This document shows positions 38,553-57,504 of a DNA stretch of 64,000 nucleotides, in pieces (the stretch's first letter is position 1; every line of letters begins with the position of its first letter). This stretch comes from Pseudolabrys sp. GTDB taxonomy: Bacteria; Pseudomonadota; Alphaproteobacteria; Rhizobiales; Xanthobacteraceae. Under the pieces are notes generated by a model. It was not told the DNA's origin, did not search any database, and saw only the letters and a program-made list of their open reading frames with translations. The translations under genes and the position numbers were made by a program. The DNA is taken from positions 38,186-102,185 of the forward strand of contig JAFIGS010000033.1 of assembly GCA_017849615.1 (NCBI GenBank), read 5' to 3'.

Positions 38553-38568
38553 GAACACAGAAGGTCAC

Positions 38569-39510: not shown

Positions 39511-40677
39511 TTACGCCATCCCCTGCACGGCGAGAAACTTGCCCATGCGCGATGCGGCGAGGTCCGGGTCGTGCAGCACGCGGGCCTTGTCGGCGAGCCG
39601 GAACAGTTCGGCGAAATGCAGCACCGAGCGCGCGCTCTGCTGGCCGCCGATCATCGAGAAATGATCCTGCAGGCCGTTGAGCCAGGCCAGGAACACGACG
39701 CCGGTTTTGTAGAACCGGGTCGGCGCCTTGAAGATATGCCGCGAGAGAGGCACCGTCGGCTCCAGGATGCCATGGAAGCCTTGCAGATCGTTGTTGGCGA
39801 GTCTGGCTAGGCCGGCCGAGGCGGCCGGCGCGATGGCATCGAAGATGCCGAGCAGCGCGTCGGAATGGCCCTGCTCGTCGCCGGCGATCAGTTCGGCGTA
39901 GTTGAAGTCGTCGCCGGTATACATGCGCACGCCCTGAGGCAGCCGGCGACGCATGGCGATCTCCTTCTCCTTGGACAGGAGCGAGATCTTGATGCCGTCG
40001 ATCTTCTCGGCGTTGTCGGCCATGATGGCAAGGCACGTTTCCATCGCCGCCATGTGATCGGCTGAGCCCCAATAACCCGCCAGCGCCGGATCGAACATCT
40101 CGCCGAGCCAATGGATGATCACGGGCTGCTTCACCTGACGCAGGATGCGGCCATAGACCTTTCCGTAGTCGGCCGGCGACTTGGCGGCGCGGGCGAGCGC
40201 GCGCGACGCCATGAGGATGATCTGGCCGCCTTCGGCTTCGATGAACTCGATCTGCTCCTCATAGGCGCGGATGATGTCGTCGAGCGTGACGCGGTCATTG
40301 GCCTCGAGGTGGTCGGTGCCGCAGCCGAACCCGATCTTGGCGCCGGGACGCGTTTTGGCTTCGTCCTGCGCATGCTTAATCAGCTGCTTGGCGCCGTTCC
40401 AGTCGAGTCCGCCGCCGCGCTGCGCGGTGTCCATGGCTTCGGCGACGCCGAGGCCGAGGTCCCACAGGTAATGGCGGAACGCCATCGTCTTGTCCCAGTC
40501 GATGTTGACGTCGAGCCACGGGTCGTTGTCGGCCAGCGGGTCGGCAACGACATGCGCCGCCGCGTAGGCGACGCGGTTGAACTTCGCGGTCTCTTCTTTC
40601 GACGGAAACCGGATCGGTTCGCCGGTGGTGTAGTCCGAAAACTTGCGATCGGCGTTGGGCAGCGAAATGGTCGCCAT
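39511..40677 (-). CDS. DUF993, dihydrodipicolinate-synthase-like protein
   Basis: 388 residues from the ATG 40675-40677, preceded by AGGAG. The protein matches my memory of the DUF993 family, a divergent branch of class I aldolase-type TIM barrels (DHDPS/NAL superfamily): GFGCGTDHLEAND, VKQPVIIHWLGEMFDP, KIDGIKISLLSKEKE with a Lys in the position expected for the Schiff base, and MYTGDDFNYAELI. It is probably an aldolase or lyase on a keto-acid-like intermediate. It follows the Gfo/Idh gene by 20 bp, so the two are one operon. Substrate unknown. Confidence 0.82.
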   Translation of the reverse strand: MATISLPNADRKFSDYTTGEPIRFPSKEETAKFNRVAYAAAHVVADPLADNDPWLDVNIDWDKTMAFRHYLWDLGLGVAEAMDTAQRGGGLDWNGAKQLIKHAQDEAKTRPGAKIGFGCGTDHLEANDRVTLDDIIRAYEEQIEFIEAEGGQIILMASRALARAAKSPADYGKVYGRILRQVKQPVIIHWLGEMFDPALAGYWGSADHMAAMETCLAIMADNAEKIDGIKISLLSKEKEIAMRRRLPQGVRMYTGDDFNYAELIAGDEQGHSDALLGIFDAIAPAASAGLARLANNDLQGFHGILEPTVPLSRHIFKAPTRFYKTGVVFLAWLNGLQDHFSMIGGQQSARSVLHFAELFRLADKARVLHDPDLAASRMGKFLAVQGMA

Positions 40678-40697
40678 GCGGCTGCTCCTGTCGTCCC

Positions 40698-41852
40698 TCA
40701 GATCTTGATTTCGGGAACGTCGAGCCAGCGACGCTCCTTCCAGCTCTTGAGGCCCAGTTCGGCGAGCTGCACGCCCTTGATGCCTTCGACCAGGTCGTGC
40801 TTCCACGGCGTATCGGCGACGACGTGGCGAATGAAATCTTCCCACTGAATCTTGAAGCCGTTGTCATAGACCATGTTGTCCGGCACCTCTTCCCACTGCG
40901 AGGCGAACTTCATGGTCTGCGGCACGTCCGGATTCCAGACCGGGCGCGGCGTGTTGACGCGAGACTGGGTCACGCATTTGGTGAGGCCGGCGACGGCCGA
41001 GCCATGCGTTCCGTCGACCTGGAAGGTGACGAGATCGTCGCGCTGCACGCGCACGCACCACGATGAGTTCATGTGGGCGATGACGCCGCCGGCGAGCTGG
41101 AACGTGGCGTAGGCCGCGTCGTCGGCATCGGCCTTGTAGGTTTTGCCGTTTTCATCGACCCGAGTCGGGATATGCGTCGCGCCAAGGCAGCTCACCGCCT
41201 CGACATTGCCGAACAGGTTGTCGAGCACGTAGCGCCAGTGGCAAAGCATATCGAGGATGATGCCGCCGCCTTCGTTCAGCTTGTAGTTCCAGCTCGGGCG
41301 CTGTGCCGGCTGGCCCCAGTCGCCTTCGAATACCCAGTAGCCGAATTCGCCGCGGACCGAGAGGATCTTCCCGAAGAAGCCGGCATCGTTCAGCAGCTTG
41401 ATCTTGCGCAGGCCGGGCAGGAACAGCTTGTCCTGCACCACGCCGTTCTTGATGCCTTTGGCCTTGGCGGCCTTGGCGGCGGCAATCGCCTTTTCCATCG
41501 TGTCGGCGATCGGCTTTTCGCAATAGACGTGTTTGCCGGCGGCGATCGCCTGCATCAGCAGATCGGCGCGCATCTGCGTGGTGGCCGCGTCGAAGAACAC
41601 TTCGTCGTTCTTGTCGTTCACGGCCTTGTCGAGATCGGTGGTGTGGCGCTCGATGCCGTATTGCTTGGCCAGCGCGGCGACCTTCTCGGCGTTGCGGCCG
41701 ACCAGGATCGGATCGGGCATCACCTTGTCGCCGTTCGGCAGCACGACGCCACCCTGCTGACGGATGGCCACGATCGAGCGAACCAGATGCTGGTTCAGTC
41801 CCATGCGTCCGGTGACGCCGTTCATCACAATGCCGAGCCTGCGGGTCGCCAC
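40698..41852 (-). CDS. Gfo/Idh/MocA-family oxidoreductase
   Basis: 384 residues starting with GTG (41850-41852), with GGAGGAACGCGC before it. N-terminal Rossmann region GIVMNGVTGRMGLNQ, the family motif GKHVYCEKPIADT, and a C-terminal substrate domain with NEGGGIILDMLCHWRYVLD containing Asp and His of the usual catalytic set. It should oxidise or reduce a hydroxyl of a sugar, inositol or related compound with NAD(P). It is the first gene of the operon with DUF993; a predicted TetR operator lies 51-68 bp upstream. Confidence 0.9.
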   Translation of the reverse strand: MATRRLGIVMNGVTGRMGLNQHLVRSIVAIRQQGGVVLPNGDKVMPDPILVGRNAEKVAALAKQYGIERHTTDLDKAVNDKNDEVFFDAATTQMRADLLMQAIAAGKHVYCEKPIADTMEKAIAAAKAAKAKGIKNGVVQDKLFLPGLRKIKLLNDAGFFGKILSVRGEFGYWVFEGDWGQPAQRPSWNYKLNEGGGIILDMLCHWRYVLDNLFGNVEAVSCLGATHIPTRVDENGKTYKADADDAAYATFQLAGGVIAHMNSSWCVRVQRDDLVTFQVDGTHGSAVAGLTKCVTQSRVNTPRPVWNPDVPQTMKFASQWEEVPDNMVYDNGFKIQWEDFIRHVVADTPWKHDLVEGIKGVQLAELGLKSWKERRWLDVPEIKI

Positions 41853-41902
41853 GCGCGTTCCTCCACTTTTTTTGTTGCAGCGAACGCCGGGCGCGCCCGC
41901 TA

Positions 41903-41920
41903 AGTAACTAGACGGTTACT
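41903..41920. promoter_or_regulatory. Predicted TetR operator, copy 2
   Basis: AGTAACTAGACGGTTACT: perfect 6-bp arms AGTAAC/GTTACT around 6 bases. It lies upstream of the Gfo/Idh-DUF993 operon and just beyond the 3' end of the TetR gene. It is the better copy of the motif at 36673-36690. Confidence 0.65.
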
Positions 41921-41960
41921 ATTGAGCCGAGGCGGGCCCGCCGTCAAGAGCCTCGAAAAA

Positions 41961-42635
41961 CTATTTGTTTTCAGAGGGTTTCAGGTAGGCGAGGACGACC
42001 TCGACGATGTGCTCGCCGCGCTTGTCGAGCCGCTTGGGGGCGCTCAGGTCCTCGCCGAAAATCACCGACAAAGTGTGCCGGTTCTGCATGTAGAAAAAGC
42101 CGAGGCCGGCGATCGAGATGTACAGTTCGACCGGGTCGACACCCTTGCGGAATAGTCCCTGTTTCACGCCGCGCTGCAGCAGCACGTCGATCATGCCGGT
42201 CAGCGGCTGATGCAAGGGGCGGATGCTCTGCGACTTTTTCAGGTAGGCCGCCCGGTTCATATTCTCGGTGGCGAGCAGGCTGAGAAACTCGGGATGGTCG
42301 ATGAAGTACTGCCACGTGAACAGCACCAGTTTCCGCATGCCGGCGGCCGGGTCGAGCTCCGTCAGATTCAGCCCGATTTCAGCGTGGCGGATCGCCGAAT
42401 AGGTCTCCTCGAGCACGGCGACATACAGCCCCTGCTTGTCGCCGAAGTAGTGGTAAAGCATGCGCTTGTTGACGCCGGCGCGTTCCGCAATGGCATCGAC
42501 CCGGGCACCCGTCAGGCCCTTGGCGGTTATCTCCTCGGTGGCGGCGCGGAGGATGGCAGCGCGCGTGCGCTCGGGATCGCGCGTCACGCCGCTCGCGCGC
42601 AAGGCAGCCCGGCTTTTCGGTGTCGAGCCTTCCAT
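41961..42635 (-). CDS. TetR/AcrR-family transcriptional regulator
   Basis: 224 residues from the ATG 42633-42635 (GAGGG upstream). The N-terminal helix-turn-helix reads TRAAILRAATEEITAKGLTG, then VDAIAERAGVNKRMLYHYFG with DKQGLYVAVLEE. The rest is an all-helical ligand domain (TWQYFIDHPEFLSLLATEN). It is expected to repress until an inducer binds. The shared dyad at two nearby promoters points to control of the flanking isomerase/enolase, ABC importer and Gfo/Idh-DUF993 operons. Its own upstream region shows no copy of the dyad. Confidence 0.92.
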   Translation of the reverse strand: MEGSTPKSRAALRASGVTRDPERTRAAILRAATEEITAKGLTGARVDAIAERAGVNKRMLYHYFGDKQGLYVAVLEETYSAIRHAEIGLNLTELDPAAGMRKLVLFTWQYFIDHPEFLSLLATENMNRAAYLKKSQSIRPLHQPLTGMIDVLLQRGVKQGLFRKGVDPVELYISIAGLGFFYMQNRHTLSVIFGEDLSAPKRLDKRGEHIVEVVLAYLKPSENK

Positions 42636-42707
42636 CGTTTCCCTCGGCCGCGGTAGCGGCCACCTTGTGTAGCGCAAGGAGCGGGGAAGTCCTAGCGCCG
42701 GCTCAAC

Positions 42708-43700
42708 TCAGCGAAAACGCCAGCTCCAGCCGAGGATATCGGCCAATCCTCCCGACAGCGACAGAGCCTGAATGACCGTGACAGCGTCCACGGTCAACAC
42801 GACAGCACCGGCCAGGGAAACCAGGGTGCCGACCACCAGCCCGCCACCGAATATTTCGTGGTCGCGATTGAGCACGGCCGAAAGATGAACGCGGAAAACG
42901 AGGTGCAATTGCAGAATCGCCGTCGCCACCGCGATCGGCGCCAGCGCGAAGGCCATATACCGGAACATCTGCGACAGGCTGACCGAGACGCCGGAGACGA
43001 CGAACCACCGGGTCGCCCGCCAGTCCATGAACCTCAATCCGGGCCATTGCGACGGCATCAACATGGCGAGCACCACGACAGCGGTCGCGGCGAGATGCGA
43101 GATGAACCCCGCGGCGACACCGTTGGCCAAGGTCTTGGCCGGCAGCGCCATGCCGATGAGAATCGGGCTGATGCCATAACCCAAGGCGCAAAGGCTCGCG
43201 TAAAAATAGCCTTCGCGGTAATTGGGCGTGAACGCAGGCACCGCAGCTTCAGGGGCCGATTGCGCCGCCGCTCCCCGGGCGGCGCGGCGCGCCATCAACG
43301 GCCCCACCACGATCATGATGACACCGACGATCCGCAGCACCGTAACGGCTTCGCCGAGCCACAGCACCGCCAAAACGAGGGTTATGACAAGACTATAGTT
43401 CTGAACAGGTCCGACGAGGTTGGCGCCCATCGCCTTGACCGCGCGGTAGTTGGCGTAGCGCGCTGCGGCGAAGTGAATGACGCCGGCCATGGCCAGCAGC
43501 AACACCGACCGGCTGTCAAAGGCCCGCAGCGTCTCGCCAATGCCGAAAGGCGCCAGCGCAACGAGAAACAGCGGCAGCGCAAGAAAGCAGCTGATGGCCA
43601 CCGCCTGCAACACGGAGCCCGTGAGCACGCCACGCCGCGCCGTCGCGTTTGCGAAGGCAAAGGTGACCGCAGAGAGGAGCGCAAGAAGGCCGCCGATCAT
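42708..43700 (-). CDS. EamA/DMT-family transporter
   Basis: 330 residues with ten predicted helices in two repeated halves, as in drug/metabolite transporters: LLALLSAVTFAFANATARRG at the start, GANLVGPVQNYSLVITLVLA and LCALGYGISPILIG in the repeats. It likely exports or exchanges a small metabolite. It is on the same strand as the TetR gene, 72 bp upstream of it, and 55 bp downstream of the oxoprolinase-type operon, so cotranscription with either is possible. Confidence 0.85.
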   Translation of the reverse strand: MIGGLLALLSAVTFAFANATARRGVLTGSVLQAVAISCFLALPLFLVALAPFGIGETLRAFDSRSVLLLAMAGVIHFAAARYANYRAVKAMGANLVGPVQNYSLVITLVLAVLWLGEAVTVLRIVGVIMIVVGPLMARRAARGAAAQSAPEAAVPAFTPNYREGYFYASLCALGYGISPILIGMALPAKTLANGVAAGFISHLAATAVVVLAMLMPSQWPGLRFMDWRATRWFVVSGVSVSLSQMFRYMAFALAPIAVATAILQLHLVFRVHLSAVLNRDHEIFGGGLVVGTLVSLAGAVVLTVDAVTVIQALSLSGGLADILGWSWRFR

Positions 43701-43755
43701 GACGGCCTTCTCTTAGGGCATGACGCCGGGGCGGGCACGCGAAAACGTCACCGCC

Positions 43756-45663
43756 TCACGAGCAACACCGACAGTTCATCGCAAACACCATGCGTTCTTC
43801 TTCTGTCAGCTTTTCCGGAATCTCATTGCGCTGCGGCTGTTCGTAGACCGTATTCGTCTTGAACACCGGTGTCGGCGCAATCGGCTCGTCGATCGGCAGG
43901 CCCGCTTTCTTCATTTCAGCGCGCCGCTTGTCGGTGGCCTTGATGTCGATCGAGCCGTCCGCTTTGAACACCACGCCGTAGCTCGTCTCCGCCTGCTCGG
44001 GCGAGATGTAGCCACAACGCACGTCGCGCTCCAGGCCCTCGATATCGCGTTCCAGCGGCGAGCCGTAGCCGCCGCCGCCGCCCGAGCGCAGGATGTAGGC
44101 ATCGCCCGACTTCAGCACCTGGTTGATCGCCTTGCCGTTCGGGAACAGCGTTTCCTCCGTCGCGCCGCCGCGATGAATGGCGACCGAATTGCCGAAGCCG
44201 GACAGACCGCCGAACACACCCCAGGGCTTGCAGACGACGCGGTCCATCTGCGACGAGAAGTTGATCTGGTTGATGGCCTGCATGACCTGTTCGGTGCCGA
44301 GACCGCCGCGGAATTTTCCGGCGCCGCCGGAATCCGGCCGCAGGCAGTAACGCTCGACCAGCAGCGGATACTTGGCCTCCACCTGCTCCGACGGGCCATT
44401 GTGGGTGTCGCCGTCATTCATGGCGATGGTGGCATTCATGCCATCGCTGTTGTACTTCGCGCCCCAGCCGCCGCCAATCAAGCCGCCGAGATAGATGTAG
44501 AACGAATTATCCGACGCCTTGCGGCCATTGACGCGGCCGACCACGAGATCGGCGTGATGGCCGGCGGCAACCTGCTCCGGCATCGCCGGCGCCACCGCCT
44601 TGAAGATCGTGTCGACGACGGTCATGGGATAGGTCATCCACATGCGCATCGCGGCCGGTTTCACCGCCGAAACGACGCTGCCCGCCGGCAGGATGATGTC
44701 GAGGGCGCGGAACTGACCTTCGTTGATCGGCATGTCGAGCGCCGACGTCAGGCACTTGAACGCCACCTGGCAGCACGACATGCCCGCCGTGGCGCCCGAG
44801 TTGTAGAAGCCGCCGACCTGCTTCGACACCTCCGACAGATCGACCGACATGCGGTCGCCCCTGATCTCGACCTTGACGCGGATCGGCACCCGCACGCCGA
44901 CTGAGACGCCGTCGTCGTCCATGAACGATTCGGCCTCGTAAACACCATCCGGCATGGCCGCGACGCGCTCGCGCGCGATACGCTCGCTCTGGTCCATGAT
45001 GGCGTCGATGGCGCCGAGTACGTCATCGCGGCCGTACTTGCGCAGCATCTCGAGGAAGCGCTTCTCGCCGGTCTTCACCGCGGCGATCTGCGCGCGGAAA
45101 TCGCCCATGGCGCGGTCGGCCAGACGCACATTGGTCTTGATGATCGAGACAAGCTCTTCGTTGATCACGCCCTTGCGGTAGATCTTGACGATCGGCATCT
45201 GCAGGCCTTCGGAATAGATATCCGTCGTCGAGCCCGACAGCGTGCCACCGACATCCGGCCAGTGCGCCATGCAGCAGGAGAAGCCCACCAGGTCGCCGTC
45301 GTGGAAGATCGGCACCGTGAAGGTCATGTGGTTGAGATGCGAGCCGGTGATGTAGGCGTCGTTGGTGAGCAGGATGTCGCCCGGATCGATATCGCCCTTG
45401 AAATGCGCGATCTTGGCCTTCACCGTCTCGCTCATGCCGCGGATGAACATCGGCAGGCCGAGGCCGATCGACACCGTATTGCCCTCGGCATCGAACAGGC
45501 CGACCGTGAAGTCGAGCGCCTCGTATATGATCATGTTGTAGGCTGTGCGCATCAGATTGGTCTTCATCTCCTCCGTCGCGGCGATGAGACCGTTGCGCAC
45601 GATTTCGGTGACGACCGGATCGATCGCGGTCCGGGACGAGCCCTGCTTGTTGATGGCGTCCAT
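43756..45663 (-). CDS. Hydantoinase B/oxoprolinase-family protein (HyuB-like)
   Basis: 635 residues. The family couples ATP hydrolysis to opening of hydantoin, 5-oxoproline or caprolactam rings, or to carboxylation of ketones, as an A-B complex. Typical stretches are IVRNGLIAATEEMKTNLMRT, GDILLTNDAYITGSHLNHM, MAHWPDVGG, and the Gly-rich RPDSGGAGKFRGGLGTEQ and LRSGGGGGYGSPLERD. The C-terminus ends in an unusual Cys cluster (MNCRCCS). Only 2 bp separate it from the A subunit upstream, so the two are coupled. Which reaction it performs is not determined by sequence alone. Confidence 0.9.
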   Translation of the reverse strand: MDAINKQGSSRTAIDPVVTEIVRNGLIAATEEMKTNLMRTAYNMIIYEALDFTVGLFDAEGNTVSIGLGLPMFIRGMSETVKAKIAHFKGDIDPGDILLTNDAYITGSHLNHMTFTVPIFHDGDLVGFSCCMAHWPDVGGTLSGSTTDIYSEGLQMPIVKIYRKGVINEELVSIIKTNVRLADRAMGDFRAQIAAVKTGEKRFLEMLRKYGRDDVLGAIDAIMDQSERIARERVAAMPDGVYEAESFMDDDGVSVGVRVPIRVKVEIRGDRMSVDLSEVSKQVGGFYNSGATAGMSCCQVAFKCLTSALDMPINEGQFRALDIILPAGSVVSAVKPAAMRMWMTYPMTVVDTIFKAVAPAMPEQVAAGHHADLVVGRVNGRKASDNSFYIYLGGLIGGGWGAKYNSDGMNATIAMNDGDTHNGPSEQVEAKYPLLVERYCLRPDSGGAGKFRGGLGTEQVMQAINQINFSSQMDRVVCKPWGVFGGLSGFGNSVAIHRGGATEETLFPNGKAINQVLKSGDAYILRSGGGGGYGSPLERDIEGLERDVRCGYISPEQAETSYGVVFKADGSIDIKATDKRRAEMKKAGLPIDEPIAPTPVFKTNTVYEQPQRNEIPEKLTEEERMVFAMNCRCCS

Positions 45664-45665
45664 GA

Positions 45666-47741
45666 TCAGGCCCTTCCGATTTCGATATGCAGATTGCCGA
45701 AGGCGTCGACTTCAACCTTGTCCTGCGGGAACACCACGGTGGTCGAGGCATGCTCTTCGATCAGCGCCGGACCGTTGATGCGGTTGCCGGCCGCGAGCCT
45801 GGTGCGATCGTAGGTCGGCGTATCGACGCTGCCGACACCGGAGAAATAGACCTTCCGGCTGCCGCGGAAGGCGGCTTCGGCCGAAGCACCGCCGCCGGGC
45901 AGCTTCTCACGGTCCGGCTTCTTCATCGTGCCGACGGTCGCGGAGCGGAGCGACACGATCTCGGCCTTTTCATCGGGGTTATGGTAGCCGTAGCGGGTTT
46001 CATGCACGGCATCGAACATCTTTTTGATGCCGTCGCGGTCCTTGTTCCGGAACAGCTCCATCGGAATATCGACCGTGACGGCGTGCTCCTGACCGACATA
46101 GCGCATGTCGGCGCCGCGCAGCGAAACCGTATCCACCGTCATATCGCGGCTGCGCGCCAGGTCCTCGGCGCCGGCCTTCTCCATCGCCTGATAGAGCGCT
46201 TCCATCTCGTCAAATGACACGTCGGCAAACGGCTTGAACCAGGTGTTTACCAGGTCGCGTCGCAGATCGGCGAACAGCATGCCGTAGGCCGAAAAGTGCC
46301 CCGGCGCGAACGGAATGATGAGTTCTCCGATACGCAGCTCGCGCGCGATCATCGTAGCGTGCAGCGGCCCGGCGCCGCCATAGGCGATCATGGCGAAGTC
46401 GGCGGCATCGAGGCCGCGCTCCGTCGTGACCCAGCGCACCATATGCGCCATCTTGGTGACGGCAACGCGCAGAATGCCATCGGCCGCCTCCAGCGTGCCG
46501 AGATCGAGCGGCTTGCCAATCTTCGATTCGATCGCCTTTGTCGCGCCGTCGAGATCGAGCTTCATCTCGCCGCCGAGGAAGCGGTCCGGCGCGAGGCGGC
46601 CGAGCGCGAGGTTGCAATCCGTCACGGTCGGCTCGGTACCGCCGAGGCCGTAGCACACCGGACCGGGCGACGAGCCGGCGCTTTCCGGACCGACGCGCAG
46701 AGCGCCGGATTCGATCCGCGCGATCGAGCCGCCGCCGGTGCCGACTTCCTGAATGTCGATCATGGGAATTTGCAATGGCAGACCCGAGGCATAGCCACCC
46801 ACGATCTGGCCACCGGTCATCAACACGTCGCCCTGGTAAATAACACCGGCCTTGGCGGTGGTGCCGCCCATGTCGAAGGCGATGGCGTTCTTCAGGCCGA
46901 TCTGGTCGCACAGCACCTTGGAGCCGATGACGCCGGCGGCCGGCCCCGACTCCAGCATCCGGATGCAGGATTGCTGCGCTTCCTCGATGTCGAACAGGCC
47001 GCCGGTCGACTGCACCACCAGGAAGTTGCCGGTGAAGCCGGTTTCCGCGAGATGCTCATCCATCTCGCCGAGATAGCGGCGCACGCGCGGTCCGACATAG
47101 GCGTTCGCCGCCGTCGTCGAGGTGCGCTCGTATTCGCGATACTCCTGCGACAGCTCGTGCGACGCCGTGACGAAGAGGTCGGGGAACGCCTTCTCGACGA
47201 TCTCCTTGGCGCGCTTCTCGTGCGTCGGGTTCCGGTAGGAGTGCAGGAACAGGATGGCGATGGCCTTGACGCCCTTCTTCACCGCCTCGGCGACGGTATC
47301 GAGCACCTGTTGCTCGTCGAGCGGGATGAGCACGCGGCCCTGGGCGTCGCAGCGCTCGCGGATGTCGAAACGCATGTCGCGGTCGATCAGCGGCTTGTGC
47401 TTCTGGAAGAACAGATTGTAGGCCTCCGGCCGGTTGACGCGGCCGATCTCGTAGATGTCGCGGAAGCCCTGCGTCGTCAGCAGCGCACACGGCGCGCCGG
47501 TGCGTTCCAGGATGGTGTTGATCGCCACCGTGGTGCCGTGCAGGAACAACTGCGCCTGCGGAAACGAGGCGCCGGCCTTCTCGACGCCGGTCTCGATGCC
47601 GGTCACCAGCCGCTGATGTGTGGTCAGCGTCTTGCCGAGCATCAGCTTGCCGGTTGGCTCGTCGAAGGCAGCCACATCGGTGAAGGTGCCGCCGACGTCG
47701 GCGGACAGGCGCAGACGTCCCTGAACTAGTTTCGCATCCAC
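45666..47741 (-). CDS. Hydantoinase A/oxoprolinase-family protein (HyuA-like)
   Basis: 691 residues, the ATP-binding partner of the B subunit. The sugar-kinase/Hsp70-like phosphate loops are visible: SADVGGTFTDVAAFD at the N-terminus and NAIAFDMGGTTAKAGVI in the middle. LFLHGTTVAINTILERTGA and QEVGTGGGSIARIESGAL with GPESAGSSPGPVCYG are hallmarks of hydantoinase A, 5-oxoprolinase and acetone carboxylase subunits. The context (DUF1445 protein and ABC importer upstream) favours a lactam or imide rather than a ketone. A palindromic repeat fills the gap to the DUF1445 gene upstream. Confidence 0.92.
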   Translation of the reverse strand: MDAKLVQGRLRLSADVGGTFTDVAAFDEPTGKLMLGKTLTTHQRLVTGIETGVEKAGASFPQAQLFLHGTTVAINTILERTGAPCALLTTQGFRDIYEIGRVNRPEAYNLFFQKHKPLIDRDMRFDIRERCDAQGRVLIPLDEQQVLDTVAEAVKKGVKAIAILFLHSYRNPTHEKRAKEIVEKAFPDLFVTASHELSQEYREYERTSTTAANAYVGPRVRRYLGEMDEHLAETGFTGNFLVVQSTGGLFDIEEAQQSCIRMLESGPAAGVIGSKVLCDQIGLKNAIAFDMGGTTAKAGVIYQGDVLMTGGQIVGGYASGLPLQIPMIDIQEVGTGGGSIARIESGALRVGPESAGSSPGPVCYGLGGTEPTVTDCNLALGRLAPDRFLGGEMKLDLDGATKAIESKIGKPLDLGTLEAADGILRVAVTKMAHMVRWVTTERGLDAADFAMIAYGGAGPLHATMIARELRIGELIIPFAPGHFSAYGMLFADLRRDLVNTWFKPFADVSFDEMEALYQAMEKAGAEDLARSRDMTVDTVSLRGADMRYVGQEHAVTVDIPMELFRNKDRDGIKKMFDAVHETRYGYHNPDEKAEIVSLRSATVGTMKKPDREKLPGGGASAEAAFRGSRKVYFSGVGSVDTPTYDRTRLAAGNRINGPALIEEHASTTVVFPQDKVEVDAFGNLHIEIGRA

Positions 47742-47768
47742 TTTCCGTTACTCCTCGTTCGTCCTTCA

Positions 47769-47899
47769 GTCATTCCGGGGCGCGAGCGCAGCTCGCTTAA
47801 CCCGGAATCCAGCTTTTCAGTTTCGATCTGGATTCCGGATCGCCGCCATAGCGCGTCGAAGACGCGCGTAAACGCGCTAATGGCGGCGTCCGGAATGAC
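47769..47899. repeat. Palindromic extragenic repeat, family B, copy 2
   Basis: Starts GTCATTCCGGGGCGC and ends CGTCCGGAATGAC, with CCCGGAATCCAG and CTGGATTCCGGATCGC in the middle. The right half is longer than in the other copies (an extra hairpin CGCCGCCAT...ATGGCGGCG). It lies inside the HyuA operon. Confidence 0.8.
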
Positions 47900-47909
47900 G
47901 GCATGATCC

Positions 47910-48686
47910 TCATGGTGTCATCAGGCTTGTCGCCCGAAGATCGGTGATGAAACTGTGCGCGGCGGCATGCACGATGAAGAGCGGCAGCTTCGCCGCCTCC
48001 GCCGCCGATTGCGGCGTCACGCCGCAAGCCCAGAACAGCGCGGTCTTGTCTTTCGGCACCCGGCCGACCGGGCCGCCGAAAACGGGATTGTCGATGTCCG
48101 CGCCGATGCCGGCGGGATCGCCGATATGGATCGGCGCGCCGTGATTGAACGGAAAACGCGCCGAGACCTGCGTGGCGACGATGGCCTGCTGCGGCGTCAG
48201 CCAGCGCATGGTGACGAACAGGTCGCCCTTGAACGGCCCGGCCGGCTCGGTCGGCGTCGTGGTGCGCAGCACCCAGCGGTCCTTGTCCGTGGGCACGCCG
48301 GCACGCTCGAAAGCATCGTCGAAGGTGATGCCGGAGCCGATCAGGAACGACACCAGGTCGTCCCGCCACAGGTCGGAGATATCGGTGCGATCGTCCTGGC
48401 GCTCGCCGTCGACGAAGACAGTGTAGCGGGCAAGATCGGTGCGCAGGTCCGCGGTCGGCGCCAGCTTGCGCGGCACCGGATCGCCGGCCTCGAGCACTTC
48501 CAGCACTGGACAAGCGTGCTGGTTGCGCTGGCAATACAGCATGAAGTCGAAGGCATAGGCCTTCGGCATGATGGCCAGATTGCACTGCACGAAGCCGTGC
48601 GCCTTGCCCCGGCTCGAACCGGTGTAACGGCCGGCGCGAATATCAGCGCGCACGCGCTGGCTCTCGAGAAGCGCATCGCTTTTCAC
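47910..48686 (-). CDS. DUF1445 protein, putative hydro-lyase (D-glutamate cyclase-like)
   Basis: 258 residues from a GTG (48684-48686) that overlaps the stop of the upstream gene (GTGA). Family marks include RYTGSSRGKAHGFVQCNLAI, AYAFDFMLYCQRNQHACPVL, GPFKGDLFVTMRWL and FWACGVTPQ. DUF1445 forms the N-terminal part of mammalian D-glutamate cyclase, and its Bacillus member YcsI sits with the 5-oxoprolinase genes (both from memory). Here it is again next to an oxoprolinase-type A-B pair, which supports a role on D-glutamate, 5-oxo-D-proline or an analogue. Direct evidence for its reaction is lacking. Confidence 0.87.
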   Translation of the reverse strand: MKSDALLESQRVRADIRAGRYTGSSRGKAHGFVQCNLAIMPKAYAFDFMLYCQRNQHACPVLEVLEAGDPVPRKLAPTADLRTDLARYTVFVDGERQDDRTDISDLWRDDLVSFLIGSGITFDDAFERAGVPTDKDRWVLRTTTPTEPAGPFKGDLFVTMRWLTPQQAIVATQVSARFPFNHGAPIHIGDPAGIGADIDNPVFGGPVGRVPKDKTALFWACGVTPQSAAEAAKLPLFIVHAAAHSFITDLRATSLMTP

Positions 48687-49804
48687 GCCGCGCCTCCCTC
48701 GATCTCGACTTCGTACAGTTGAGCAAAACCGGTCTTGTCGGAGGTAAAGACGACGCGCGTGCCGTCCGGCGAAAAGCGCGGATGCGGATGGGTGTGCTGA
48801 CGCGCCTCCACCGCGACCGGGCCGTCGTTGTACGGGAACGGATGGGCCCAGTGCGCGCCCTCGGACGTCGCCTCGCTGGCGCAAAGAAACTGAGGCTCGC
48901 CGCCGCCAAGGCCATCGAGCGGCAGGATGTGCAGGCCCTTGTCGGGAAAGTTGGTGTCGCAGACAAAGCGTGTCCCTGTCGCGTCCGGCGCGGCGTGCCA
49001 GGCCGGGAAGCGGTTGAGCCATTCGGCTTTGCCGGTCGCAAGGTCAATCACGCGCATGCCACGCGGCCAGTCGATGAAGGCGATCGCCTTGCGGCCTGGC
49101 AGCCAGACCTCGTGGGTCACCCACTGCATCTTGTCTTCGCGCTCGTAGACGCGCTTGTTGACGCCCTCGCGCGTCACGGTCCAGACGCGGTCGGTCAGCG
49201 GGCCGGCATAGAGAATAAGGTTGTCGTCGTCCGGGCAGAACTGCGGGTGACCGATGGTGTCGCGCTCGAGAATGACGCGGCTGGTGGCGGCCTTGGTGTC
49301 GATCAGCACGAAACGCGACACCTTGCCGGATTTCACCGGGATGGCCCACCAGCGGCCGTTCGCCGACAGCGTGGTGGTGCCCATGGCGGCGCCGACCATG
49401 CCCTTCTCGCGCATTTCGACCGCGCCGAAATCGGCGAGTTGCGTCTCGCTGAAGTCCGTCAGGTCGATCCGCCACGCGCCCGTGCCGGCAACGTAATAGA
49501 CGGCGCGTCCGTCCGGCGCCGGATAGATCGACCATTCGGCCAGATCGCCCCGATCGGTGACCTGCACGATCTCGCCCGCCACGCGGTCCTCGTAATAGAT
49601 CTGCGGCCGGCCGGTGCGATGCGACACGAAGAACAGCTTGGCGCCCGTCCGGTCATAGGCCGGCACGAAGAAGAACGGATGATGGTGAATGCTGGCGTGA
49701 TCGGTGACTTGCCGCACCTGCCGTCCCGATCCCGGGTCGGTGAACGCGCGGGACTCCGCCGCAAAGCGGGCCCCGCGCGTTGTTTTTGTGGCTGTCCGAA
49801 GCAT
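48683..49804 (-). CDS. Oligogalacturonate-lyase-like beta-propeller protein
   Basis: 373 residues of short WD/TolB-like beta repeats (QVTDRGDLAEWSIYPAPDGR, RFSPDGTRVVFTSDKTG) and no signal peptide, so cytosolic. Q336, H339 and H341 (RQHTHPHPRF), with H270 (PAWHAAPD) about 66 residues before, mirror the Gln-x2-His-x-His and distant His manganese ligands of oligogalacturonate lyase (from memory). It could therefore be a metal-dependent lyase on an uronate-like or other acid. Its place between an ABC importer and DUF1445/HyuAB genes is unusual for pectin breakdown, so its substrate may be different. An ordinary TolB-like propeller is the alternative. Confidence 0.7.
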   Translation of the reverse strand: MLRTATKTTRGARFAAESRAFTDPGSGRQVRQVTDHASIHHHPFFFVPAYDRTGAKLFFVSHRTGRPQIYYEDRVAGEIVQVTDRGDLAEWSIYPAPDGRAVYYVAGTGAWRIDLTDFSETQLADFGAVEMREKGMVGAAMGTTTLSANGRWWAIPVKSGKVSRFVLIDTKAATSRVILERDTIGHPQFCPDDDNLILYAGPLTDRVWTVTREGVNKRVYEREDKMQWVTHEVWLPGRKAIAFIDWPRGMRVIDLATGKAEWLNRFPAWHAAPDATGTRFVCDTNFPDKGLHILPLDGLGGGEPQFLCASEATSEGAHWAHPFPYNDGPVAVEARQHTHPHPRFSPDGTRVVFTSDKTGFAQLYEVEIEGGAA

Positions 49805-49814
49805 CGCCGTCCTG

Positions 49815-50885
49815 TCAGGCCTTGTAGTTCTTGGCCTGCTCGATGATCTTGGCGCGGTCGAAATCGTTGATCTCGTCGATCAGCTCGTTCGACATCAGCG
49901 GCTTCACATCCTTGATATCGAGGCCGAGGAACTGCGCGTCGCGCTGCAACTCGTCCTCGCGGATGAAGCCCATCTTGGTGTTCTCGTAAGGCGGGCGGAA
50001 CAGCGGAATGCGGCGCTGCGCCGCGAACAGCACGGACTTGACGGCGTCCGCCTCGGAAGCGCCGCGCGGCGCGGTTTCCGGATAGAGCTTGAGGAAGACG
50101 CGGGCGCCCGCCTCGGGATTGGCCAGTAGGAACTCCGACGATTTCGCCACCGCGCGGGCAAAGCCGACGCAAGTCTTGCGATCGGACTGCAGCGTTTTCG
50201 CCATCGTCGAGATGAACAGGCCGCCAATCAGCGGCACGTCCTTGGGACGCGGCAGCATGCGAATCGGAATGCTGGCCGCTTCGATCTGACCGAAGCCGGT
50301 GTCGAAATAGGCGAGCGCGTCGATCACGCCGCGCTGCAGGGCGACGCCCGCGGTGACGCCGGCGCCGACCGCGACCCAGGTAACATCCTTGTCTGGGTCA
50401 ATGCCGATGTTCTTGAGCACGGCGCGGGTCACCGGATAGTCGGTGGTCGCCAGATCAGAGACGCCGATCTTCTTGCCCTTGAGCTCGTTGTAGGACTTGA
50501 GGCCCGAGCTCTCGAGCACGGCCACGTCCCACTTATAGGGATAGGTGTATTCGTAGTAGTTCACGATCGGCGGCAGCTCGCCCTTGGCGAACAGCGGCAT
50601 CTGGAAACTTGGCGTGCCGACGGCGAACTGCGTCTCACCCTTGTCGAGCGCGATCTGCGCATTCGAATTGCCGCCGAGCGGGCGCGCGGTGAAGTCGAGG
50701 CCCTCTTCCTTGTAGTAGCCCAGGCCACTGCCGATCAGGATGTTGATGATGATAGGGTTGATCGACTTGATGCCGAAGCCCATCGAAACCTTCTTCAACT
50801 CCTGCGCGCGCAGGATGGACGGCGCGGCAACCCCGGCCAGCGCGACCGCGCCGATGCCTTTGACGACTGTACGACGTGTGGTCAT
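49815..50885 (-). CDS. NitT/TauT-type ABC transporter substrate-binding protein
   Basis: 356 residues from the ATG 50883-50885 (GGAGGAAACA upstream); the longer frame is a shadow of the permease gene. A Tat signal (TTRRTVVKGIGAVALAGVAA, cleavage near LRAQEL) is followed by the SsuA/NMT1-like domain: GSGLGYYKEEGLDFTARPLG and LKGKKIGVSDLATTDYPVTR. It binds a small acidic or sulfonate-like compound in the periplasm. It lies 22 bp after the permease gene and 10 bp before the lyase-like gene, all in one operon. Confidence 0.92.
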   Translation of the reverse strand: MTTRRTVVKGIGAVALAGVAAPSILRAQELKKVSMGFGIKSINPIIINILIGSGLGYYKEEGLDFTARPLGGNSNAQIALDKGETQFAVGTPSFQMPLFAKGELPPIVNYYEYTYPYKWDVAVLESSGLKSYNELKGKKIGVSDLATTDYPVTRAVLKNIGIDPDKDVTWVAVGAGVTAGVALQRGVIDALAYFDTGFGQIEAASIPIRMLPRPKDVPLIGGLFISTMAKTLQSDRKTCVGFARAVAKSSEFLLANPEAGARVFLKLYPETAPRGASEADAVKSVLFAAQRRIPLFRPPYENTKMGFIREDELQRDAQFLGLDIKDVKPLMSNELIDEINDFDRAKIIEQAKNYKA

Positions 50886-50907
50886 TGTTTCCTCCGTGCT
50901 TGTTTTT

Positions 50908-51765
50908 TTAACGTTTTCCACGATCCGCCCAGTGAATGAGCGACCGCTCGACCCGGCGCACGATGAGGTGCAACAGGATTCCTGTGATGCCGAGCACGAC
51001 GAGCGCCGCGAAAACGCCGGCGACGTCGGTAACGGCCTGAGCCTTGGTGATGGCGACGCCCATGCCTTCCTGGGCGCCAAGGAATTCGGCGACGATGGTG
51101 CCGAGCAGCGCGTAGACAATGCCCATGTCGAGGCCGGCGAAGATATACGGCGCAGCCGACGGCAGCTTGACCAGACGGTAGGTCTCGAGGCGCGAAGCCG
51201 AGAGCACCTTCATCAGCTCGATGCGCTCGACCTCGGCGGCGCGCATGCCGGCAAAGGTGTTCACCATCATCGGAAAGAAGGCGAGCAACGCGGCCATTGC
51301 GATCTTGGAGCCGTCGCCGAAGCCGCACCAGATGACGATCAGCGGCGCAATGGCGACCTTCGGCAGGCTCTGCAACGCGAAGGCATACGGCATCAGCGCG
51401 GTCTCGACCGCGCGGAATTCGGCCATCAGCGAGCCGAAGAACAGGCCGAGCAGCGCGCCGATGAGAAAGCCGGCCAGCGCATTGGACATGGTGCTCCACA
51501 ACGGCAGGTACCAGCCGAGCGGGCTGCTGACCGGAACGGCAATGCCGCTCCACAACGCGACCACCACCTGCTCCGGCGCCGGCAGGATGTAGGACGGCAC
51601 GTTCAGCAGGTTCACCGACAGCTTCCACACCAGGATGAGCGTCAGGAAGCCCGCGAAGCCGATTCCGATGTTGCGAAAGCGTACGTTGCGGCGGCGGTTC
51701 TTTTCCGCCGCCGACGAAATCGCGATCATCTCCATCGCATTCGATTCCGTGCGAATGTCGGTCAT
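50908..51765 (-). CDS. NitT/TauT-type ABC transporter permease
   Basis: 285 residues with six helices and the coupling loop IELMKVLSASRLETYRLVKL. LPKVAIAPLIVIWCGFGDGS is typical of the SsuC/TauC family. It starts 5 bp after the ATPase stop and is followed by the binding-protein gene. It is only distantly like the permease at 36.7 kb, so the two importers are not a recent duplication. Confidence 0.92.
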   Translation of the reverse strand: MTDIRTESNAMEMIAISSAAEKNRRRNVRFRNIGIGFAGFLTLILVWKLSVNLLNVPSYILPAPEQVVVALWSGIAVPVSSPLGWYLPLWSTMSNALAGFLIGALLGLFFGSLMAEFRAVETALMPYAFALQSLPKVAIAPLIVIWCGFGDGSKIAMAALLAFFPMMVNTFAGMRAAEVERIELMKVLSASRLETYRLVKLPSAAPYIFAGLDMGIVYALLGTIVAEFLGAQEGMGVAITKAQAVTDVAGVFAALVVLGITGILLHLIVRRVERSLIHWADRGKR

Positions 51766-51770
51766 GGCGA

Positions 51771-52604
51771 TTACTCCAGCAGCATGCGGATTTCGCGCGC
51801 GAGCGCGGTGTGGGTCTCGTTGCCCAGCATCTCGGTGGCGACGCGCGGGCGCGGCAGATCGACCTTGAGCTCGCGGACGATGCGGCCCGGCCGCGGCGAC
51901 ATCACGATGATGCGATCGCCGAGGAAGATCGCTTCGTCGATCGAATGGGTGATGAGCACCACGGTCTTGCCGCTCGCCATCCAGATGCGCTGCAATTCGG
52001 CATTCATGCGTTCCCGCGTCAGCGCGTCGAGGGCGCCGAACGGTTCGTCCATGAGAAGAAGTTGCGGGTCGCGCGCCAGCGCGCGCACGATGGCGGCGCG
52101 CTGCTGCATGCCGCCCGACAATTCGTAGGGGTACTTGTTCTCGAAGCCCTCGAGACCCGCGACCTTGAGCAGCGCCTTGATCTGGTCGATCAGTTGCTCG
52201 GTCTTCCTGGCGCCGCCGACCCTGAGCGGCAGGAGAACGTTCTCCATCACGGTGAACCAGGGCAACAGATTGGCCTGCTGGAACACGACCCCGACCTCTT
52301 CCGACGGGCCGTTCAGCGCCTTGCCGGCGAGCGACGATGTGCCGTGATCCGAGGTATCGAGGCCGGCCAGCAGACGCAGCAACGTCGTCTTGCCGCAGCC
52401 CGACGGGCCAACGAGACAGACGAACTCGCCTTCGCCGACATTCAGGTTGACGTGATCAAGCGCGAGGACCGCCTCGCCGGCGACCGTCGGATAAATCTTG
52501 ACGACATCCTTCACCGCGATGAGCGGTGAACGCGCGGTCTGCATTTTTGCACCGGCCGCGGCGCCGATCCCGGCAGCAGTCGGTGCATCGACAGCAAAAG
52601 TCAT
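51771..52604 (-). CDS. NitT/TauT-type ABC transporter ATPase
   Basis: 277 residues from the ATG 52602-52604 (GGAAGG upstream). Walker A GPSGCGKTT, Q-loop VVFQQANLLPW, signature LSGGMQQR, Walker B LLLMDEPFGALD and H-loop VLITHSIDEA are intact. An Ala/Gly-rich N-terminal segment of about 25 residues precedes the domain. It is the first transport gene of the operon, 95 bp after the IclR gene. Confidence 0.94.
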   Translation of the reverse strand: MTFAVDAPTAAGIGAAAGAKMQTARSPLIAVKDVVKIYPTVAGEAVLALDHVNLNVGEGEFVCLVGPSGCGKTTLLRLLAGLDTSDHGTSSLAGKALNGPSEEVGVVFQQANLLPWFTVMENVLLPLRVGGARKTEQLIDQIKALLKVAGLEGFENKYPYELSGGMQQRAAIVRALARDPQLLLMDEPFGALDALTRERMNAELQRIWMASGKTVVLITHSIDEAIFLGDRIIVMSPRPGRIVRELKVDLPRPRVATEMLGNETHTALAREIRMLLE

Positions 52605-52699
52605 TGTCCAGCCTTCCACCTTGACGTTTCGTTTCCATCCGAATGGCTTTGGCGCCATCTCATGTTGTTGGAAAAAACCCGCGGTTCTCTGAACTCTCC

Positions 52700-53614
52700 T
52701 CACACGGCAACCGAGACCGAGCCGCTCGCCTGAATGGCGCGGGCAATGTCCGCGGCGGCGCGCTGCACGGCGCCGAGCGCATGCTCGCGGAATTCTTTCG
52801 ACGACATCTGGATTTGCGGAACGGCCACGCTGACCGAGGCGAGCGGGTAGTTGTCGACATCGAGCACCGGCATGGCGAGAACGCGCAAACCGCTGCCGAA
52901 ATAGGAATCGCGCAGCGAATAGCCGCATTCGCGCACGTTGCGCAGACTGTCGTCGATTTCGTCGCGCTTCATCGGCTTGTGCGGGAATGAGCCAGGGCGC
53001 GGCTTGAGGGCCAGCACGCGTTCGAGTTCGGCCGGAGGCAGAAAGGCGAGCATCGCCTCGCCGATCGTGCTCCAGAATGCGGGAATCGTGGTGCCGATGC
53101 GAATATCGACGCCGATACGCGTCAGGCCGGCGCGGACGCGTTCGACATAGAGAATGTCGGCGCCGTCGAGCACGCCGAGCGACGCCGCCTCGTTCACCTC
53201 GCCAACCAGCGAACGCAGGATCGGCCGCGCCAGTTCGCGCAGATCGGCGCGGGCAATGGCGTGGAAGCCGAGATCGGTAACCTTCAAGGTAAGACGAAAG
53301 CGCTTGCTGTCCGGCACGCGCGCGATGTAACCGGCCATCACCAGCGTGTTGAGCATGCGGAAGGCCGTGCCGGGATCGATCTTCGCGAGACCCGCGACTT
53401 CGCTGAGCGTCAGTTCGGGACGCTCGGCGGTGAAGGCTTCGAGAACGCGCAATCCCTTGGCGAGGGAGTTGACGAGATTGCGGGAATCCTCTTCCGCCTC
53501 GGGCCGTCCGATCGCCGCGCTGGCGCTCGTCGGCGCGCCGGCTGCCAAATGGCTGCCCGCACCACGGCCGACAACGCCTTGCCGTACGGCTTTGACGCGC
53601 TTCTCTCCCGGCAT
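52700..53614 (-). CDS. IclR-family transcriptional regulator
   Basis: 304 residues from the ATG 53612-53614 (MPGEKRVKAV); the longer frame to 53854 is not supported. After a variable N-terminus, the winged helix reads LAKGLRVLEAFTAERPELTL and then SEVAGLAKIDPGTAFRMLNTL. The ligand domain has ERVRAGLTRIGVDIRIGTTI and GEAMLAFLPPAELERVLAL. It heads the operon of ABC importer, lyase-like, DUF1445 and HyuAB genes and is its likely regulator. A TTTTCG-N5-CGAAAA dyad 28 bp upstream could be its operator. Confidence 0.92.
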   Translation of the reverse strand: MPGEKRVKAVRQGVVGRGAGSHLAAGAPTSASAAIGRPEAEEDSRNLVNSLAKGLRVLEAFTAERPELTLSEVAGLAKIDPGTAFRMLNTLVMAGYIARVPDSKRFRLTLKVTDLGFHAIARADLRELARPILRSLVGEVNEAASLGVLDGADILYVERVRAGLTRIGVDIRIGTTIPAFWSTIGEAMLAFLPPAELERVLALKPRPGSFPHKPMKRDEIDDSLRNVRECGYSLRDSYFGSGLRVLAMPVLDVDNYPLASVSVAVPQIQMSSKEFREHALGAVQRAAADIARAIQASGSVSVAV

Positions 53615-53641: not shown

Positions 53642-53658
53642 TTTTCGGAATGCGAAAA
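53642..53658. promoter_or_regulatory. Inverted repeat TTTTCG-GAATG-CGAAAA (candidate IclR operator)
   Basis: Perfect 6-bp arms with a 5-nt spacer. IclR-type regulators often bind dyads of this size at their own promoter. It lies 28-44 bp upstream of the IclR start, which suits autoregulation. Confidence 0.4.
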
Positions 53659-53890
53659 TTATTTGCAGAAATATTAGACGACTTTCGCCGCATACCGTCA
53701 ATCGCGCATGACGCGAGACGCTGCGTTGATTCGCGTTCGACGACGGGTAAACGAATGGCCGATGGGAAAAAAGGCCGGTGGATGAAGGAGCGCCCGGCCG
53801 CTCGACAAGCTGCCCGCGCTCAAATTGCCGGCGCAAAGCCGCCTCGGCGCACAATCAAGTTCGGAACATGACAGCGGTGTGAATAGTTAT

Positions 53891-54161: not shown

Positions 54162-54563
54162 TCAGCGCGGCGGGATCACCGCCGTCGCCTCGATCTCGAC
54201 CTTGGCGCGATCCTCGATCAGCGCCATCACCACGAATGCGGACATCGCCGGAAAATTCTTCCCGATGACGCGGCGATAGGCCTCGCCAAGCTCCTTCGGC
54301 CGCGACAAATATTCGCGCTTGTCGGTCAGGTACCAGGTGAGGCGCACGAGATGCTCGGGCCCGCCGCCCGCTTCCTTCAGCACCGCGACGATGTTCTTCA
54401 GCGCCTGCTCCACCTGCGCGATGAAGTCGTCGCTGACGAGCTCGCACTTTTCGTTCCAGCCGATCTGTCCGGCGATGAAGACCTGCCGGCCTTCAGCCGC
54501 CACGCCATTGGCATAGCCCTTCGCCGGCGCCCAGCCCTGCGGTTGAAGAATGTCGATGCTCAT
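54162..54563 (-). CDS. RidA-family (YjgF/UK114) enamine/imine deaminase
   Basis: 133 residues from the ATG 54561-54563, overlapping the stop of the CoA-ligase gene by 4 bp (ATGA). It has the family pattern [33 protein letters not shown] and [25 protein letters not shown]. RidA proteins hydrolyse reactive enamines or imines to ketones and ammonia. At the end of a 2-aminobenzoyl-CoA operon this makes chemical sense: the dearomatised product is an enamine, and this protein may release its nitrogen. That specific role is inference. Confidence 0.92.
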
Positions 54564-56197: not shown

Positions 56198-56199
56198 TC

Positions 56200-57357: not shown

Positions 57358-57374
57358 CGAGCTGGTCCTCAGTC

Positions 57375-57476: not shown

Positions 57477-57504
57477 TGGGACTTTGTGAGACAGCGCATC
57501 GCCA

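Follow-up and report, generated by a model that had tools for sequence, protein, structure and literature searches.

The operon and its genes

Here we describe a compact operon of eight genes on the minus strand of a 64,000-nucleotide stretch of DNA from Pseudolabrys sp. (contig JAFIGS010000033.1, positions 38,186 to 102,185; the whole stretch is hereafter the window, and positions are counted within it), which most probably takes up a single compound and breaks it down under the control of one regulator. The genes occupy positions 43756-53614 and encode, in order, an IclR-family regulator, the ATPase, permease and NMT1-type binding protein of a NitT/TauT-type ABC importer, a PL22-type propeller, a DUF1445 protein, HyuA and HyuB. 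All eight were assigned to their families above Pfam cut-offs, and the gaps between them, in order from the IclR gene, are 95, 5, 22, 10, -4, 168 and 2 bp. An earlier note on this DNA had described a single minus-strand run from IclR to HyuB, and this description was borne out by the coordinates, the Pfam families and the short gaps or overlaps, with one exception of 168 bp. The features are as follows.

53673..53701, minus strand: putative sigma-70-type promoter (-35 TTGACG at 53701-53696, 17-bp spacer, -10 TCTAAT at 53678-53673)
53643..53657, minus strand: putative IclR operator, TTTCGCATTCCGAAA, with arms TTTCG/CGAAA
52700..53614, minus strand: IclR-family regulator, first gene of the operon (IclR_C and HTH_IclR above cut-off)
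51771..52604, minus strand: NitT/TauT-type ABC ATPase (ABC_tran; nearest NCBIfam models, taurine ATPase and SaoA, below cut-off)
50908..51765, minus strand: ABC permease (BPD_transp_1; SaoP, TauC and SsuC models below cut-off)
49815..50885, minus strand: NMT1-type substrate-binding protein (NMT1 above cut-off)
48683..49804, minus strand: PL22-type beta-propeller, oligogalacturonate-lyase-like (PF14583, 83.8 bits, cut-off 30)
47910..48686, minus strand: DUF1445 (PF07286) protein (114.3 bits; GTG start; 4-bp overlap with the propeller gene)
47742..47909, no strand: interspersed, intergenic palindromic repeat in the DUF1445-HyuA gap (47770-47900 has 49 matches in the genome)
45666..47741, minus strand: HyuA, ATP-binding subunit (Hydant_A_N, Hydantoinase_A and Hydant_A_C above cut-off)
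43756..45663, minus strand: HyuB, metal subunit (Hydantoinase_B, 521.6 bits)

The palindromic repeat is an apparent insertion, the DUF1445-HyuA gap being 168 bp in the window versus 21 bp in L134, a related locus. New here are the PL22 residues kept in the propeller, the altered metal site of HyuB and the inverted repeat at the IclR promoter.

The propeller is probably an active lyase

An AlphaFold2 model of the propeller, built from nine sequences (predicted local distance difference test score, pLDDT, 81), found its best match in the PDB in 3pe7, an oligogalacturonate lyase with manganese (template modelling score, TM, 0.78; 22% identity). We take the catalytic residues of 3pe7 to be Arg217 and His242 and its metal ligands to be His287, Gln350, His353 and His355, a set whose residue types fitted those numbers. 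The propeller residues R206, H231, H270, Q336, H339 and H341 align with these six in that order, all are identical, and all are invariant in 22 of 22 propellers. Because these PL22 catalytic and metal residues are kept, the propeller is probably an active metal-dependent lyase, and the lyase-like propeller of the earlier note thus gains support from the PF14583 match, the fold and the six residues. The likeness to the PL22 oligogalacturonate lyases (3pe7, 3c5m) lies in this fold and in these residues; unlike them, the window propeller is only 22% identical and is set beside HyuAB, DUF1445 and importers, and no pectin-pathway gene was found among the genes scanned. A plasmid search with the propeller returned one weak match (25.9%), in Rahnella.

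A conserved gene set with an exchangeable importer

The propeller is rare overall: among 385 sampled genomes of the class it was found in 1, that of the window itself, versus 20 of 296 genomes of the family, the window's own included. From 18 family genomes we collected 19 propeller loci (L134-L152), leaving out G395, the other genome with a propeller match, and added one locus (L153) that carries DUF1445-HyuAB without a propeller. In these fetched loci genes were called by a codon-statistics script, which over-called several open reading frame (ORF) starts, and missed genes were recovered by tblastn. HyuA was present in 16 of the 19 propeller loci, DUF1445 in 15 and IclR in 15; since L140, L141, L142 and L145 run to contig ends, genes missing from these four are no evidence of absence. 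The importer was of the NitT-ABC type in five loci (L134, L138, L140, L149 and L151) and a TAXI-TRAP transporter in 13 (in L142 its DctM part alone is on the contig), with none found in the remaining one (L150), and TAXI-TRAP replaces NitT-ABC at the identical position of the operon. DUF1445 was absent from L135, L139, L149 and L150, three of which keep HyuAB; a search of the L135, L139 and L149 genomes gave no DUF1445 match at E 1e-10, and that of the L150 genome gave only a 46% paralogue elsewhere. On the HyuB tree the importer label takes four changes, three of them forced by well-supported branches (15 labelled rows), and DUF1445 presence takes three. From these presence counts and tree changes we conclude that the importer class is exchangeable, DUF1445 dispensable, and the propeller together with HyuAB the usual core. 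The earlier note had called for a neighbourhood search of this kind, and the gene set is conserved across genomes beyond chance expectation.

Several variants of the locus were observed. L149 and L005 (Burkholderiales) carry the propeller followed by an Amidohydro_2-type gene and are without HyuAB (the assignment rests on Pfam for L149 and on a 49% tblastn match for L005), and L149 also carries an AP_endonuc_2 (sugar-isomerase-like) gene. In L151, HyuAB occurs together with a homologue (41%) of that Amidohydro_2 gene, which is divergent from IclR, and this weakens a simple alternative of HyuAB or Amidohydro_2. In L147 a same-strand run comprises GFO/IDH, DUF993, AP_endonuc_2, IclR, DHDPS, a TAXI binding protein, DctM, the propeller and DUF1445, without HyuAB. 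Beyond the propeller loci, among 80 named DUF1445 loci (the best 80 of a longer match list), DUF1445 occurs with TAXI-TRAP and DHDPS in L006, L007, L008 and L010 and with DHDPS in L009; L006 and L010 have no HyuAB. The closest named DUF1445 relative among the matches listed, 95% identical, belongs to a Pseudolabrys metagenome-assembled genome of the Xanthobacteraceae (L002). In L006 (Rhodospirillales), a UbiD-type decarboxylase gene at 8421-10001 ends directly at the DUF1445 gene.

A putative IclR operator at the operon promoter

The nearest NCBIfam models of the IclR protein are PcaR/PcaU, BhcR and KdgR, each below cut-off. At its promoter sits a 15-bp inverted repeat, TTTCGCAWTCCGAAA (TTTCG-N5-CGAAA), whose sequence is the sole exact match in the 4.4-Mb genome, with two more sites at one mismatch and one for a reversed-pattern control; within the window, allowing up to two mismatches gave no site other than the IclR one, matched on both strands. 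Near the IclR start, the repeat recurs with at most two mismatches in 19 of 20 IclR-bearing loci, and in those 19 none of the 186-198 background windows per locus was as good. These sites lie at -57 to +78 from the IclR start, as extrapolated from the window protein (the N-terminus is variable), and are not independent, since the relatives are partly close kin. Among them are L006 (two mismatches) and L010 (Acidobacteria, one mismatch), the two HyuAB-less loci mentioned above; L010 has two copies of the repeat near its IclR gene, at about 5270 and 5130, one of the two being exact.

The putative window promoter matches the sigma-70 consensus at 10 of 12 positions, and the operator starts 15 bp downstream of its -10 element. 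A sigma-70-like pair scoring at least 9/12 was found upstream of 14 of the 20 operator sites in the 19 loci versus 11 of 2000 random 75-mers, and the remaining six sites scored 7 or 8; the score of L010 means little, as its matches and its IclR gene are on opposite strands. Of the 20 sites, 14 have a 17-bp spacer, and 8, the window included, have exactly 15 bp between the -10 element and the operator. IclR domains and a conserved inverted repeat at the gene's own promoter are thus both found in the sequence, as autoregulation by IclR would have it, and we infer that IclR represses its own operon from the putative operator. This operator is common to HyuAB-bearing and HyuAB-lacking versions of the locus in different phyla, pointing to one regulator type, and therefore an inducer found in one version would inform the others.

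HyuA and HyuB form a clade with an altered metal site

The hydantoinase/oxoprolinase superfamily is large and mostly uncharacterised. Both subunits carry its domains (Hydantoinase_A, 311.5 bits, cut-off 22.9; Hydantoinase_B, cut-off 26.8), and HyuA keeps the ATP-site motifs DxGGTxTD, DxGGT and GxxPGP (D15, T19, D22; D290, T294; G356, P359, P361). In HyuB, the expected ligands read D51-H109-H112-H134 (HLNH), which departs from the Asp/Glu-His-Asp-His tetrad in that the third ligand is His. According to PMC8453981, an Asp-His-Asp-His set is conserved in hydantoinases, oxoprolinases and carboxylases, one of them with Glu for the first Asp, and Ala variants of the metal ligands of the caprolactamase subunit CapB, including Asp102, are inactive. 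His112 is present in 24 of 24 rows of the window's HyuB clade (SH-like approximate likelihood ratio test, SH-aLRT, 99) versus 0 of 9 other HyuB rows, which have Asp (eight) or Asn (one); this tree has long branches, and its groups were labelled by the residue itself, with the site kept in the tree. The partial HyuB of L141, outside the tree, also has the His. Hence, where the characterised members are described in PMC8453981 as sharing one metal site, a ligand essential in caprolactamase is here replaced in every sampled clade member. An AlphaFold2 model of HyuB was poor (pLDDT 64) and was not used for the metal site. In HyuA, Lys297 (DMGGTTAK) occupies the position of CapA Asp302, and a Lys is found there in every clade HyuA covering the site.

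The HLNH clade comprises 17 rows of the window's family (the window and L002 included), the pairs L163/L164 (~60%) and L165/L166 (69%), and rows from plasmids of Microvirga, a Comamonadaceae strain and Streptomyces, so that it spans several proteobacterial families plus one Streptomyces plasmid. HLNH HyuB was found at E 1e-130 in 3 of 398 sampled genomes of the phylum and 3 of 199 of the order, the window's own in each, the best three or six candidates per genome having been scored. Outside the family, HLNH HyuAB lies beside FAA hydrolases in six of seven loci (divergent in L173; the L164 contig begins just before HyuA) and near DHDPS in three of seven (L165, L166, L171), and CobW-type GTPases lie near it in L163, L164 and L172. 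For the four FAA hydrolases tested, the nearest NCBIfam model was 2,4-didehydro-3-deoxy-L-rhamnonate hydrolase, below cut-off.

The solved relatives that match HyuAB best are enzymes that open amide rings. One alternative is therefore an ATP-dependent amide-ring hydrolase, akin to caprolactamase and N-methylhydantoinase, acting on a lactam, imide or hydantoin, possibly with a sugar-acid-like part. The best-scoring solved relatives are the N-methylhydantoinase 7hk5, first for both subunits (E 5.4e-133 for HyuA, 3.3e-97 for HyuB), and 6yra, taken as caprolactamase by its chain lengths (696/581) and residue numbering, and the phosphate and adenosine motifs are kept together with three of the four metal ligands. 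Like CapAB of Pseudomonas jessenii (PMC8453981), the window pair consists of two subunits with the ATP motifs and the Asp, His and His of the metal site. Against such a hydrolase stand the metal site, as CapB Asp102, reported there as conserved, corresponds to His112 of HyuB throughout the clade, and the missing vicinal Cys410-Cys411 pair of CapB. The window pair further differs from CapAB in that CapA Asp302 is replaced by Lys297 and His370 of HyuB stands at the pocket position Ala365. Glu48 and Tyr391 of HyuB also differ from CapB, yet both are common among other HyuB. The N-methylhydantoinase, for its part, is a single fused chain and has its own Asp at the HyuB ligand and in DIGGTSAD. Caprolactamase identity itself was rejected on scores of 510.5 and 302.8 bits against NCBIfam equivalog cut-offs of 1000, which also count against this alternative, and on the absent Cys pair. 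The Amidohydro_2-type gene that follows the propeller in the HyuAB-less L149 and L005 suggests a hydrolytic step there, an argument weakened by L151, which carries both. On balance, we consider another cyclic amide a possible but less likely substrate.

HyuA Lys297 bears on a second alternative, in which HyuAB would, like the acetone and acetophenone enzymes, be a carboxylase that depends on ATP, its substrate being a ketone or enol formed by the upstream lyase. The acetone and acetophenone carboxylases (5m45, 5svb, 5l9w) have homologous large subunits, and Lys281 is reported at the position of CapA Asp302 in the alpha-prime subunit of acetophenone carboxylase (Apc) in PMC8453981. A beta-keto or diketo acid as product would suit the neighbours of the FAA-hydrolase family, and in four relatives HyuB is followed by a small ORF containing Cys. 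However, HyuA and HyuB score lower with the carboxylases than with the amide-ring hydrolases, no further carboxylase subunit gene was found among the ORFs scanned in 39511-53614, and the Lys is shared by HyuA proteins further away (L157, L174, L175). A Pfam scan of three of the four small ORFs found nothing significant, and no carboxylase subunit. We therefore regard a carboxylase as improbable. The paper also names 'Lys40' of CapA; because position 40 of the 6yra chain is Gly in the alignment, this residue was left out of the comparison.

The small ORFs lie at 8628-8996 (minus strand) in L163, 10817-11236 in L171 and 7860-8231 in L172, and also in L164; in L163 and L172 a CobW-type GTPase follows. 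The window HyuB ends in a Cys-rich tail (CRCC), and the ORF and the tail possibly serve metal handling for the altered HyuB site.

Two further HyuAB loci were noted among the more distant relatives. L175 (Parageobacillus plasmid pGEOTH01) has HyuAB with the normal Asp near an Xaa-Pro peptidase, proline dehydrogenase, pruA and an Asp/Glu racemase; this is a different HyuAB cluster, perhaps for a proline-derived compound. In L174 (Neorhizobium galegae pNgVX), HyuB is annotated as two adjacent coding sequences, where the related strain L176 gives a single tblastn match across that part, and the split may be a break or a sequencing error.

The DUF1445 protein and 5-oxo-D-proline

The earlier note had proposed that the operon takes up 5-oxo-D-proline or a relative and opens it with ATP, with DUF1445 as a D-glutamate cyclase-type enzyme. 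There are grounds for this: HyuAB belongs to the 5-oxoprolinase/hydantoinase superfamily, PF07286 carries the Pfam name D-glutamate cyclase, and PxpA, PxpB, PxpC and DUF4392 matches occur in 19, 22, 22 and 13, respectively, of 65 other DUF1445 loci, the 5-oxoprolinase genes PxpABC being neighbours of DUF1445 there. By contrast, no PxpA, PxpB, PxpC or DUF4392 match was found in 36 loci of the window type (eight of them without DUF1445, and several of them short contigs) or in the window between 36001 and 60000. In OPLAH, HyuA and HyuB are fused, whereas here they are separate chains.

A quick tree search placed the window DUF1445 in a 29-row clade (SH-aLRT 100), together with 17 further rows of its own family and 11 of other families and phyla; L003, L004 and L016, taken as the contigs of L138, L141 and L152, were left out of these counts. 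None of the PxpABC- or DUF4392-associated DUF1445 rows lies inside this clade, and at 22 positions that are more than 90% conserved in 64 other rows, the majority residue of the 18 family rows differs. The protein scored 278.8 bits versus a cut-off of 324 for the 'putative hydro-lyase' equivalog. It is homologous over nearly its full length to DUF1445/UPF0317 proteins (3db9, Atu3911, E 7.1e-58; 2pif, PSPTO_5379) and the vertebrate D-glutamate cyclase, and 21 residues are invariant across all 94 DUF1445 rows; unlike these, the window clade has S118 for Cys, Y51 for Phe, W162 for Pro and S245 for Met, which are found in all or nearly all of the 18 family rows. A plasmid search with DUF1445 gave no match at E 1e-70.

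Furthermore, the D-glutamate cyclase activity belongs to a two-domain mouse protein, PMC5339696 discusses DUF4392, as a racemase-like domain, and a DUF1445 + DUF4392 fusion is described in PMC5132392; the tie of DUF1445 alone to D-glutamate cyclisation, on which the earlier note had relied, is therefore weak, which calls for caution in reading DUF1445 as D-glutamate cyclase. A DUF4392 search of the window's own genome gave no match, but its controls were also silent. Taken together with the altered HyuB metal site and with the four of 19 propeller loci that lack DUF1445, the separate clade, the missing PxpABC and DUF4392 and the discussion of DUF4392 in PMC5339696 led us to reject 5-oxo-D-proline as the leading explanation, and 5-oxoproline appears unlikely as substrate, the proposal as a whole being quite improbable. 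A weaker point against it is that the genome has, at other sites, genes for a separate fused HyuA-HyuB and for a PxpA-type protein. What stands of the earlier interpretation is the conserved operon for uptake and catabolism, the ATP-binding HyuAB and the lyase-like step.

In ten loci (L020, L022, L029, L039, L046, L052, L055, L060, L065 and L080), a DUF4392-type gene lies less than 4 kb from DUF1445 on the same strand (Pfam was run on one representative); these are apparently the halves of the vertebrate D-glutamate cyclase as separate bacterial genes.

A proposed route for a sugar-acid-like substrate

We propose that the operon, under IclR control, takes up and breaks down a compound that is small, polar and carboxylated, most likely resembling a uronate or sugar acid and not 5-oxoproline, and give this reading, drawn from sequence comparison, a probability of about 0.45. 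The sugar-acid-like character of the substrate is suggested by the neighbour genes of the relatives and by the PL22 active site. In such a scheme, without inducer, IclR bound to the operator just downstream of the promoter would block transcription, as the conserved anatomy of this region suggests. The substrate would enter via the NitT-type ABC importer or, in most relatives, the TAXI-TRAP transporter at the same position, and the propeller would then carry out a beta-elimination next to a carboxylate. The dispensable DUF1445 protein may act on the elimination product or on a variant of it. HyuA, whose ATP site is recognised by its motifs, would use ATP to activate the cyclic or carbonyl intermediate thus formed, and its partner HyuB, with an unusual D-H-H-H metal site, would complete the ring opening. 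The product would pass into keto-acid metabolism; DHDPS-type, FAA-hydrolase-type, GFO/IDH and sugar-isomerase-like enzymes are encoded nearby in relatives.

Several observations weigh against this reading. The DHDPS, GFO/IDH, AP_endonuc_2 and FAA hydrolase neighbours were scored against NCBIfam and the sugar-type matches were all below cut-off, so 'sugar acid' is a theme and not an assignment; besides, the DHDPS and FAA neighbours sit in relatives, outside the window. The importer classes fix no substrate, and the amide-ring-opening relatives of HyuAB make a nitrogenous ring possible. Individual loci also depart from the pattern: neither IclR nor importer matches were found in L150, neither propeller nor importer matches in L153, and L149 has no recognisable operator, 27 of its 192 background windows being as good.

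Going one step further, the HLNH/TTAK HyuAB clade may, tentatively and with the odds somewhat against it, be a functionally new ATP-dependent class. Its D-H-H-H site and Lys would then serve to open or carboxylate, at the expense of ATP, an intermediate that derives from a sugar acid and is not a lactam, supplied in this operon by a PL22-type lyase acting on a monomeric acid and not on pectin. If true, the HyuAB and DUF1445 clades would together form a catabolic pathway that we did not find described in the literature searched; among openly licensed (Creative Commons) PubMed Central (PMC) papers, none was found with both 'oligogalacturonate lyase' and 'hydantoinase', nor any with three of six related terms. 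The operon is compact, with a conserved putative operator, a recognisable lyase and an importer binding protein suited to ligand screening.

Neighbouring genes and the rest of the genome

Downstream of HyuB, four genes form a possible associated unit.

42708..43700, minus strand: EamA transporter (homologue downstream of HyuB in L002, L134-L137 and L139)
41961..42677, minus strand: TetR regulator
40698..41852, minus strand: GFO/IDH/MocA oxidoreductase (best NCBIfam model levoglucosan dehydrogenase, 83.9 bits, cut-off 650)
39511..40845, minus strand: DUF993 protein (PF06187, 624 bits; true start probably inside the listed ORF)

The GFO/IDH and DUF993 genes lie downstream of the operon in the window, L002, L134-L137 and L139, and are contiguous with the propeller operon in L147. 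We call this unit merely associated because the operator matches of the window are limited to the IclR site. DUF993 was not mentioned in the openly licensed PMC papers searched.

Elsewhere in the genome, L179 encodes a fused HyuA-HyuB protein of 1258 amino acids (1338-5114) and L178 carries a PxpA-type gene (4503-5285), with no PxpB or PxpC match in the 10 kb around the latter. Within the window, 36734-39396 (plus strand) and 35757-36665 (minus strand) hold a second NitT-type permease, binding protein and ATPase, convergent with the DUF993 gene, and beside them an AP_endonuc_2 gene that shares 50% identity across 189 residues with its counterpart in the L149 propeller operon. Upstream of the operon, 54162-59354 (minus strand) holds a RidA-like ORF and genes for an AMP-binding enzyme, an acyl-CoA dehydrogenase, an enoyl-CoA hydratase and a MarR regulator, and looks like a separate CoA-dependent degradation cluster.

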